From Chloroflexota bacterium (lineage in GTDB: Bacteria > Chloroflexota > Dehalococcoidia > Lucifugimonadales > UBA3495), in contig VXOG01000096.1 in the NCBI GenBank assembly GCA_009840165.1, positions 1 through 48,706 on the forward strand: 48,706 bases of DNA, given 5' to 3'. Positions 3,047-6,314 of the stretch are shown here, piece after piece. A program made the position numbers and the translations under genes. How positions within the stretch are numbered: the first letter of the stretch is position 1; each line of letters begins with the position of its first letter. Below the pieces are notes generated by a model. It did not search any database, had not been told where the DNA came from, and worked only from the letters and a program-made list of their open reading frames with translations.

Positions 3047-3172
3047 CCTTTACCACTTCCCAAAGTGACCGCGCATGAACATCTCCCCATACCAACACTG
3101 CCCTGCTCCTTGTCCCGCCCGACGTTCTTTGCTACGCTTGCTGGGCATTCCTCAGCAACAGTTGGATCCGCA

Positions 3173-4618
3173 ATGAGTACGCCAGACCGATTCCAGGACT
3201 ACGACCTTGACCAGCGCATTTATGACGAGATGTTCCTTACGGATGGCGAACCTCGCGCGCACTGTCAGCGGTTGTGGGACGCTCTGGATAATTTTTCCGA
3301 CGAGCAACTGAGCAGCATCCAGGAACGGGTGACCCGGTCTTTCTCCAGCGAAGGAATCACCTTCACCGTGTACGGAGATGATGAGGCCGAGGAGCGCATC
3401 ATCCCCGTCGATTGCATCCCCCGCCTGTTGCCCAAAGCGGAGTGGGACTCACTGCACGCCGGCCTCACCCAACGCCTCCAAACCCTGAACCTGTTCTTGC
3501 AGGACGTTTACGGCGACGCCAGGATCGTTGCCGACGGCGTGATTCCCGCCGAGGTAGTGTACGACTGCCCTCAATACCGGCCGGAGATGCGCGGCTTCAC
3601 CCCGCCACAGGGCACTTGGGTCGCCGTCTGCGGCACCGATGTGGTACGAACCAACGACGGCTTTTGCGTCCTGGAAGACAACCTGCGCGTTCCCTCTGGC
3701 GTCTCGTACATGATCGCCAACCGCAAGGCCACCAAAACCAGCCTGCGGAGACTTTACCGAGATTCCCGAGTGCAGGAGGTGGAACACTACGGCCACTTGC
3801 TTAGGGAAACCCTGCTGGAACTGGCCCCCGACGGTCGCCAAGCCCCCAGAATCGCCCTGCTCACCCCCGGCGTGTACAACTCGGCGTTCTATGAGCACAT
3901 GTTCCTCTCCCGCGAGATCGGTGCGGAGTTGGTGGAGGGACAAGACCTGTTGGTGCGCGACGGGTTCCTGTATATGCGCACCACCACCGGATTGCAACGC
4001 ATCGACGTCCTCTACCGGCGCGTGGACGACGACTTTCTGGACCCTTCGGTTTTCCGCTCCGATTCCGTGCTCGGCGTGCCCGGCCTGATGGATGCCTATC
4101 GCGCCGGCAACGTGGCTCTCGCCAACGCTCCCGGCACCGGCGTAGCCGACGACAAGAGCGTGTACGCCTACGTTCCCGACATGGTCCGGTACTATCGGAA
4201 CGAAGAACCTCTGCTGCAGAACGTGGAAACCCACCTGTGCCGCAATCCCGAAAGCCTGGCGTACACGCTGGACAACCTGGACAAGCTGGTCGTCAAGCGG
4301 GTCGGCGAATCTGGCGGCTATGGGATGCTGGTGGGAGTTCACGCCACTCCGGAGGAGCGCGCCGATTACGCCCGGGAAATCAGGGCGAACCCCAACGACT
4401 TCATCTCCCAACCCACCCTCGACCTTTCCCGCTCTCCCTGTTTGATCGAGGGCAATATCGAGCCGCGCCACGTTGATCTGCGACCGTTCATCCTGCATGG
4501 CCGCACGACCCGCATCGTGCCCGGCGCCTTTTGCCGCGTCGCCCTCCGGCGTGGCAGCCTGGTCGTGAACAGCAGCCAGGGCGGCGGTGGCAAAGACGTC
4601 TGGGTGCTGGAGGACTGA
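3173..4618 (+). CDS. Circularly permuted ATP-grasp family protein (COG2308)
   Basis: A 481-aa protein of the cp-ATP-grasp type 2 family (DUF404/DUF407). Recognisable blocks include a central GFCVLEDNLRVPSGVSYMIANRK, split here as GFCVLEDNLRV plus PSGVSYM, then VVKRVGESGGYGMLVG and a late LSRSPCLIEGNIEPRHVDLRPF region. The family is predicted to ligate amino groups to carboxylates using ATP, probably on a peptide substrate; substrates are not established. The ATG at 3173 gives the family's usual length; an upstream in-frame extension would add 36 poorly conserved residues. The alpha-E gene begins 5 nt after the stop, the standard pairing for this family, which supports a two-gene operon. Confidence 0.9.
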   Translation: MSTPDRFQDYDLDQRIYDEMFLTDGEPRAHCQRLWDALDNFSDEQLSSIQERVTRSFSSEGITFTVYGDDEAEERIIPVDCIPRLLPKAEWDSLHAGLTQRLQTLNLFLQDVYGDARIVADGVIPAEVVYDCPQYRPEMRGFTPPQGTWVAVCGTDVVRTNDGFCVLEDNLRVPSGVSYMIANRKATKTSLRRLYRDSRVQEVEHYGHLLRETLLELAPDGRQAPRIALLTPGVYNSAFYEHMFLSREIGAELVEGQDLLVRDGFLYMRTTTGLQRIDVLYRRVDDDFLDPSVFRSDSVLGVPGLMDAYRAGNVALANAPGTGVADDKSVYAYVPDMVRYYRNEEPLLQNVETHLCRNPESLAYTLDNLDKLVVKRVGESGGYGMLVGVHATPEERADYAREIRANPNDFISQPTLDLSRSPCLIEGNIEPRHVDLRPFILHGRTTRIVPGAFCRVALRRGSLVVNSSQGGGGKDVWVLED

Positions 4619-4623
4619 TCGTC

Positions 4624-5682
4624 ATGTTGGCTCGCAGCGCGCAGGGACTCTACTGGATGGGCCGCTACCTCGAGCGCGCGGACCACCTCTGCCGCCTGCT
4701 CAGGTTACAGACTGAAGCTCTGGTTGACCGGCCCATCGCCGAAATCTATAACGGCTGGAACCGCATCTATTCGTGCCTGGACCGCCAGCCCCCCGGGAGC
4801 GGCCCGGATCTATTCCCCGGCAATGACGGCGATTCCAACGTCGGTATGCTCCAGGTAATGGGCATTCCGGGAAGCCGCGCCTGGCAAACTAGCGGCGGCG
4901 ACGAATACACCCTGGCCGATTCCTTCACCCTGGCCGACGACCTCACCTTTGAACGCTCCAACCCCGGTTCCATGTACAACTGCTTCGCCATGGGCCGCGA
5001 GAACGCCCGGCAAATGCGCCACCGCATCAGCGCTGACATGTGGACCTGTCTGAACCTGGCCTACTTGCGCATTCAAGGGATCAACATCCTGGACATCTGG
5101 AACACTTCGCCCGAAACCTTTTACGCCGAAACCGCCGCCGAGATCGACACCTTCATGGGCGTTGCCGCGGCCACCATGTACCGCGATGAGGGCTGGCATT
5201 TCATGCAACTGGGCAGATTCATCGAGCGGGCCCAGCTTGCCGTAGCGCTTTTCACGTCCCAAATCGAAATGTTTCCCCTCGATCAATCCTCGGTTGGTGA
5301 AGGCTCGGAATCGGATTGGATTGCGCTGTTGCGAATGTATCACGCTGTCGAGGCTTACAACCGTACCTACAGCGTGGAAATCCTGCCCGAACAGGTTCTG
5401 GACCTGCTGGTGACCGACCCTCTGCTGCCGGATTCATTGTGTCGCTCCCTGGACGTGGCGGCCACCGAACTTGCGTCCATTCCTCTCGGGCCGAATGTCC
5501 AGTCAGATGCCGGGGCGCGACGGCTTTCCGGCCGGTTGGCCGCCATGGCTCGTTACGAATGGCCAGACACCACCGACCGGGCGCGCCTGCTGTTGTACCT
5601 CAGCAACCACTGTCTTGAGCTGCACGATCTGGTTTCAACCGCCTTCTTTTACTACGATCTACCAGGTGGGTTCGCCAACTGA
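4624..5682 (+). CDS. Alpha-E domain protein (COG2307), partner of cp-ATP-grasp
   Basis: A 352-aa, mostly helical alpha-E (DUF403) protein. The typical N-terminus MLARSAQGLYWMGRYLERADHLCR is seen in two parts (MLARSAQGLYWMGRYLERA, then DHLCRLLRLQ), and a later GWHFMQLGRFIERAQ repeats the same helix-R-E-R-A pattern. The ATG at 4624 starts 5 nt after the cp-ATP-grasp stop. In other genomes the pair often sits with a transglutaminase-like protease and a proteasome-like peptidase and is proposed to make or process a small peptide product. Those partners are absent here. The function is therefore known only by association. Confidence 0.9.
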   Translation: MLARSAQGLYWMGRYLERADHLCRLLRLQTEALVDRPIAEIYNGWNRIYSCLDRQPPGSGPDLFPGNDGDSNVGMLQVMGIPGSRAWQTSGGDEYTLADSFTLADDLTFERSNPGSMYNCFAMGRENARQMRHRISADMWTCLNLAYLRIQGINILDIWNTSPETFYAETAAEIDTFMGVAAATMYRDEGWHFMQLGRFIERAQLAVALFTSQIEMFPLDQSSVGEGSESDWIALLRMYHAVEAYNRTYSVEILPEQVLDLLVTDPLLPDSLCRSLDVAATELASIPLGPNVQSDAGARRLSGRLAAMARYEWPDTTDRARLLLYLSNHCLELHDLVSTAFFYYDLPGGFAN

Positions 5683-5875: not shown

Positions 5876-5883
5876 GAGGAGGA
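5876..5883 (+). promoter_or_regulatory. Strong Shine-Dalgarno fixing a TTG start
   Basis: GAGGAGGA lies 5 nt upstream of the TTG at 5889. There is no ATG in frame nearby, so this site decides the start of the FTR gene and shows the frame is translated. Confidence 0.8.
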
Positions 5884-5888
5884 TCAAA

Positions 5889-6314
5889 TTGGCCGATCAG
5901 CCCAGCGAAAAAGCCATCCAGCGGATGCGCCTGTTCGTCGACCGTTACTGCGAAAAATCCGGCACGTTTCTGCATCCGGAAGAAGGAATCGCAGAATCCG
6001 TAATCCTGGGCCTGGCCCAGAACGTCGATGAAATCGGCCGGCCGCTCTGCCCCTGCCGCTTCTACCCCAGCAAGGAAGAAGAGATCAAGCACCGCACCTG
6101 GATCTGCGCGTGCGATGACATGCAGATCTACAAATATTGCCATTGACTGCTCTTCGTCAATGAGCAGGGTCTGCCCATCACAGAACATCTACCCGAAGAT
6201 CACGAAGGCCGCGCCATCTACGGCGAGGTGAAAGACCCGACCCCCGACAAGGGACGTCCGTTGCGCCACAAGGCCGAGGAACGCGAGGAAGAGCGCCGGA
6301 ATCGCCCGTCGTAA
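5889..6314 (+). CDS. ftrB: Ferredoxin-thioredoxin reductase catalytic subunit, probable selenoprotein (UGA = Sec86)
   Basis: Read through the UGA at 6144-6146, this is a 141-aa FTR catalytic (beta) chain, the family's usual size. The six redox/cluster positions are C54-P-C56, C73-A-C75 and C84-H-Sec86, spaced exactly as in cyanobacterial FTR (55/57, 74/76, 85/87). There, four cysteines bind a [4Fe-4S] cluster and C57-C87 form the disulfide that reduces thioredoxin; here Sec replaces C87. The 55 codons after UGA (beginning LLFVNEQGLPITEH) match the normal FTR C-terminus and end at TAA 6312. Stopping at UGA would lose the catalytic residue. Other genes in the window end in UGA, so the code is not reassigned. 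A SECIS-like hairpin follows. No variable subunit gene is adjacent; single-chain FTR-like enzymes are known. A nonsense mutation or sequencing error is the alternative. Confidence 0.85.
6156..6181 (+). promoter_or_regulatory. SECIS-like hairpin for UGA recoding
   Basis: The RNA can form GCAG-GGU-CUGC (6164-6174), a 4-bp stem with a GGU apical loop. After an A-C mismatch the stem extends by AUG... pairing 6160-6162 with 6176-6178, and then by GU/AC (6156-6157 with 6180-6181). The GU of the loop lies about 22 nt after the UGA, within the range for bacterial SECIS elements, and the apex resembles the GGU-containing loop of E. coli fdhF that SelB recognises. The hairpin lies inside the coding region, as expected for bacteria. 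Stability was not computed. Confidence 0.55.

Follow-up and report, generated by a model that had tools for sequence, protein, structure and literature searches.

The window that we have studied, by which we mean the whole stretch of 48,706 nucleotides, contains a homologue of the catalytic chain of ferredoxin-thioredoxin reductase (FTR), ftrB, with a coding frame (5889-6311) of 141 codons that holds one TGA, at codon 86, and runs on to a TAA stop (6312-6314). The features of the gene are collected in Table 1. A purine-rich site similar to the probable ribosome binding site lies ahead of the start in the 11 other copies of ftrB from the same genus. Upstream of the gene is a CP-ATP-grasp and Alpha-E gene pair (window positions 3065-5682) and downstream a gene for an MFS transporter. 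Flanking genes are shared within some small clades and differ even between congeners, and the gene neighbourhood names no partner, any one family, in a loose clustering of mechanically called open reading frames over 81 loci, being found near ftrB in 15 of them at most.

Table 1. Features of the ftrB locus, in window coordinates.
Feature	Position	Strand	Basis
Probable ribosome binding site GAGGAGGA ahead of the TTG start	5876..5883	+	Sequence
ftrB, FTR catalytic chain homologue, 141 aa with predicted Sec86	5889..6314	+	TTG start, TAA stop; frame, profile and alignment evidence
CPC motif (Cys54, Cys56)	6048..6056	+	Homology
CAC motif (Cys73, Cys75)	6105..6113	+	Homology
Cys84 codon	6138..6140	+	Homology
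UGA, predicted selenocysteine codon 86 of the CHU motif; second redox position	6144..6146	+	Frame and conservation among relatives
SECIS-like hairpin, apical GGU at 6168-6170	6160..6178	+	Folding; recurs in relatives

Read through the TGA, the ftrB product matches PF02943 with an E value of 2.1e-21 (76.4 bits, cut-off 22), and in the genome to which the window belongs (G000; 3.76 Mb in 115 contigs, 96% complete) it is the only match to this family at E values up to 0.01. Searched by themselves, the residues ahead of the TGA match at 1.8e-17, and those after it match no Pfam family. Cysteines 54, 56, 73, 75 and 84 together with the UGA at 86 give the pattern CPC...CAC...CHU, so that both the six FTR-spaced positions and the in-frame UGA in the sixth of them, with the frame continuing to TAA, are as an earlier reading made from the letters of the sequence (the sequence-only reading) had claimed. 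With U entered as C, phmmer pairs residue 86 with the final Cys of CHC in the solved FTR chains 7bzk (8e-23) and 1dj7 (3.9e-20), in alignments that run without gaps from residue 3 or 4 to residue 91 and end there. The further description of the region past the UGA as a typical FTR tail holds for the bacterial family, where it is conserved among 20 aligned members, but not for the solved FTRs, whose match goes no further than residue 91. In these 20 members, which were chosen by us, the six Cys/Sec columns are invariant when U is shown as C. The cyanobacterial and chloroplast catalytic chains (1dj7, 2puk, 7bzk) share with ftrB a six-position CxC, CxC, CxC pattern and differ from it in having Cys where ftrB would have Sec. 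By homology we take Cys54, Cys73, Cys75 and Cys84 to be cluster ligands and Cys56 to be the first redox Cys, and the last Cys of CHC, in the column of residue 86, to form the redox disulfide with it and to be the cluster-facing member of the pair. That two cysteines make up the redox-active bridge of FTR is stated in the accessible part of PMC2398784; the individual roles of the two are not named in the accessible portions of PMC9025218 and PMC7278568.

In order to place the UGA among its relatives we have compared ftrB with genes from 197 searched genomes, 58 of which have an ftrB-type match at 1e-5. The family of ftrB itself (E below 1e-60) accounts for 41 matches in 40 genomes, 18 with one TGA and 23 without a stop, as counted manually. 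Within the genus the gene is present in 12 of 14 genomes and each of the 12 copies has TGA at codon 86; genomes G003 and G006 (99% and 97% complete) gave no ftrB match. A wider search of genome contigs yielded 91 confirmed loci, and among the best 80 of these TGA occurs in 23, the named records nearest to the window in that set being Dehalococcoidia, Chloroflexota and SAR202 metagenome genomes. The 110 loci (L009-L118) from the two overlapping searches, drawn partly from the best 80 of 91, reduce to 87 distinct sequences in which the codon 86 column is TGA in 25, TGT or TGC in 62, and nothing else, so that homologues with UGA and with Cys at this column, for which the earlier reading had proposed a search, both exist. 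At the first redox position all 110 loci have a Cys codon (TGC or TGT), and none of the 87 sequences has Sec there (position 56). Judged from this comparison and from the TGA kept in the 12 genus copies, the UGA of ftrB is not there by chance. One TGA row, L094, comes from a record named Proteobacteria. Several further observations concern individual relatives: a group of Sec sequences (L102, L107, L114-L118) has an extra Cys four residues past the Sec (ULLFC), where other rows have Val or Thr; G031 holds two near-identical Sec copies of ftrB on two short contigs (L138, L139), perhaps a strain or assembly duplicate; and L140 (G044:C33) is a degraded copy from which the region surrounding the UGA is missing.

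Under the standard code the open reading frame ends at 6146, and standard gene calling would terminate ftrB there with loss of the second redox residue, as had been pointed out beforehand. Taken at face value the UGA would then be a true stop, leaving either a pseudogene or a truncated protein of 85 residues, and the two near-complete genus genomes without a match, which show that the gene is dispensable, fit such a stop. We nevertheless consider it very improbable. In the genus (12 sequences) pN/pS comes to 0.099 upstream of the TGA and 0.101 downstream of it, and on this equality of purifying selection on the two sides we have rejected a truncated gene or pseudogene; in addition, reading frame and length are kept in all 12 copies, and the restriction of codon 86 to TGA or Cys in the 87 distinct relatives argues in the same direction.

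Decoding of UGA as selenocysteine calls for a dedicated machinery, and the sequence-only reading had named absence of the sel genes as grounds for giving up its proposal. All four are present in G000: tRNA-Sec (selC; 66.4 bits, cut-off 47, RF01852), SelA (551.8 bits, cut-off 267.9), SelB (363.4 bits, cut-off 242.25) and SelD (373.5 bits, cut-off 125). The RF01852 search also matched a tRNA-Ser above cut-off, and ARAGORN, which reports a tRNA-SeC with anticodon tca, was used to separate the two. The SelD gene (L132, G000:C7) has an in-frame TGA of its own in the motif CAGUAAK, which we take to be the SelD catalytic position, with a predicted hairpin of -10.5 kcal/mol behind it. At L001 (G000:C46:3396-3829) the tRNA-Sec match follows a thioredoxin match of the same strand, beginning ∼45 bases beyond it. 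SelA, present in 168 of 197 genomes of the order, was rejected as a discriminator between Sec and Cys forms; by manual cross-reading it occurs in 16/17 TGA genomes vs 19/23 Cys genomes, the one TGA-bearing genome without a SelA match being G047 (75% complete). SelA and SelB are also described in most sponge-symbiont bins in the accessible part of PMC5649159. Seven of the 12 genus genes terminate in TGA, at codon 142, so that within one gene UGA acts as a stop at the end but not at codon 86. It is for this reason, and on account of the same TGA in all 12 genus copies from separate genomes, that we have rejected a further explanation, according to which the code is altered and the UGA specifies another amino acid, or the sequence is in error and the codon is really TGC or TGT, from either of which TGA arises by a single-base change; with the tRNA-Sec gene also present, this explanation is even more improbable than a true stop.

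A selenocysteine UGA is expected to be accompanied by a SECIS element, and the earlier reading had suggested that one be looked for close to the UGA. We have taken folds from base 13, the first base of the UGA being base 1. Most TGA-bearing sequences then form a hairpin whose apical loop contains GG (bases 25-26), its forms in different groups being GGGC-GGUCU-GCCC, GGCA-GGUC-UGCC and GGAA-GGUC-UUCC. The best energy of such a GG-apical hairpin averages -7.5 kcal/mol in the 25 TGA rows vs -1.6 in the 62 Cys rows (Mann-Whitney 4e-10, a p-value that overstates the evidence, the rows being related), and synonymous recodings average -2.55 and -1.24, respectively. A hairpin at -4 kcal/mol or better is found in 23/25 TGA rows vs 10/62 Cys rows; the TGA rows L085 and L094 have none at the tested place, and both have a hairpin shifted upstream. 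Pairing examined by column gave a mixed picture. Some inner pairs favour TGA rows (23-30 in 13/25 vs 9/62, 18-34 in 20/25 vs 16/62, 21-32 in 24/25 vs 27/62), whereas other pairs, those of the outer stem among them, occur in Cys rows at least as often (13-38 in 18/25 TGA vs 59/62 Cys, 16-35 in 24/25 vs 61/62, 22-31 in 24/25 vs 59/62). Synonymous change in the hairpin span compared with further downstream is 0.22 vs 0.48 for the 12 genus rows and 0.23 vs 0.57 for the 7 rows of the L102 group; the same comparison in four chosen Cys groups (27 of the 62 rows) gives 0.53/0.66, 0.72/0.63, 0.48/0.71 and 0.08/0.15, so that a dip is seen in three of these as well, clearly in two.

The hairpin of the window itself pairs one register over (GCAG-GGU-CUGC) and at -5.3 kcal/mol is the weakest of the genus, where the other 11 copies range from -8.8 to -10.1; 19 of 200 synonymous recodings of the window fold as well as its own sequence. 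When the first 12 bases are included, a different fold wins in the window and in 7 of the 25 TGA rows (manual reading of 45-base folds). A CUGCUC/GAGCAG hairpin directly after the UGA, formed in two of three folds, was considered as the SECIS and rejected, since z-scores for the three folds were only -0.3 to -0.8 and it is the later hairpin that recurs in relatives; bases so close to the UGA would, moreover, be covered by the ribosome. The outcome of the search is therefore divided, with a SECIS-like element that appears well supported by folding for the family and only moderately so for the window alone. Taken together, the Sec machinery, the conservation of UGA vs Cys, selection of the same strength ahead of and behind the UGA, and the SECIS-like element in the UGA-bearing relatives make selenocysteine at the sixth FTR cysteine very likely at the level of sequence, in support of what had been proposed for the redox Cys. 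The most likely product of the gene is an FTR-type iron-sulfur redox enzyme in which selenocysteine takes one of the two active-site positions.

Selenium at this site in FTR is not new in kind. As far as its accessible text goes, PMC2398784 predicted Sec-FTR in 2008 from two sequences of the GOS survey, one with two Sec at both redox Cys; ftrB shares with these a predicted Sec in the FTR catalytic subunit, but those are survey reads without genomes whereas ftrB sits in a genome. In the accessible parts of PMC13188914 and PMC9312934 Sec-FTR is listed with the motif CxU, and the former gives two Sec and NF041072, a curated double-Sec family (FtrB_double_U). This too is an FTR catalytic family, represented in the same order, and its second redox position is occupied by Sec, as predicted for ftrB; ftrB keeps Cys56, however, while in NF041072 the first position is Sec as well (CPU...CIU or CLU), and its members are 30-35% identical to ftrB. 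The window gene, with one Sec, scores 47 bits on NF041072 (cut-off 160 bits) vs 214.2 for a double-Sec relative, and by sequence it is a further, single-Sec branch separate from the curated family. We found no description of this branch in the open-licence literature consulted. A double-Sec FtrB of the pattern CPU...CPC...CIU or CLU, distinct from the window gene, occurs in 14 order-level relatives (L141-L154); the stretch behind each UGA folds locally at -6.8 to -12.8 kcal/mol.

A quick tree was calculated from 103 rows (62 Cys, 27 single-Sec, 14 double-Sec) and 141 columns, four of 20 additional stretches having been left out as duplicates or a fragment. The double-Sec set forms one side of a starred (well-supported) branch, subject to a long-branch warning that concerns L113 with that set. 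Within the single-Sec/Cys family there are at least 8 Sec/Cys changes, 4 of them forced by starred branches, on a tree in which 43 of 98 inner branches are open and gain and loss are indistinguishable. All of these changes are at the second redox position and none at the first. Such repeated swapping, confined to what would be the cluster-facing position, may indicate that the advantage of selenium lies in contact with the cluster rather than in the attack on the substrate disulfide, a proposal to which we give slightly less than even odds; if true, an Fe-Se contact on the [4Fe-4S] cluster would be a possible catalytic intermediate.

With regard to function, ftrB is most likely a ferredoxin-dependent disulfide reductase. 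The cyanobacterial and chloroplast enzyme works with a variable chain, which according to the accessible part of PMC9025218 is exclusive to oxygenic phototrophs. No match to this chain (FeThRed_A, PF02941) was found in G000 (control: Synechococcus, found), an absence that is thus expected. The genome encodes an NADPH-type thioredoxin reductase above cut-off (352.3 bits) as well as thioredoxins, so that FtrB is not the sole possible thioredoxin reductant. The missing variable chain and the NADPH-type reductase, together with a neighbourhood that names no partner and a weak phmmer match (2.4e-7) to 4tpu, a chain named Rubredoxin that we take to be a Methanosarcina FTR-rubredoxin fusion, would fit an enzyme that has Sec inserted and reduces a different disulfide or a metabolite, as ferredoxin:disulfide reductases do, and is not a thioredoxin reductase. 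We regard this as possible but somewhat against the odds, given that the closest solved relatives are FTR catalytic chains, that thioredoxin is encoded in the genome and that the missing variable chain is as expected outside oxygenic phototrophs. The reading that we prefer, with a probability of roughly 0.9, is that of a stand-alone FTR-type chain in which SelB and tRNA-Sec would insert selenocysteine at UGA 86 under the guidance of the hairpin that starts ∼14 bases past the UGA. We infer that a [4Fe-4S] cluster on Cys54, Cys73, Cys75 and Cys84 would lie beside a Cys56-Sec86 selenenylsulfide, that electrons would be taken singly from a ferredoxin-like donor, and that the Sec protein would reduce a thioredoxin-like disulfide, with Sec86 facing the cluster and Cys56 attacking the substrate.

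The close Cys and Sec relatives of ftrB constitute natural matched pairs from which the gain that selenium brings to a disulfide working directly against a [4Fe-4S] cluster might be read, and the repeated swaps at one redox position alone point to which half-reaction matters.
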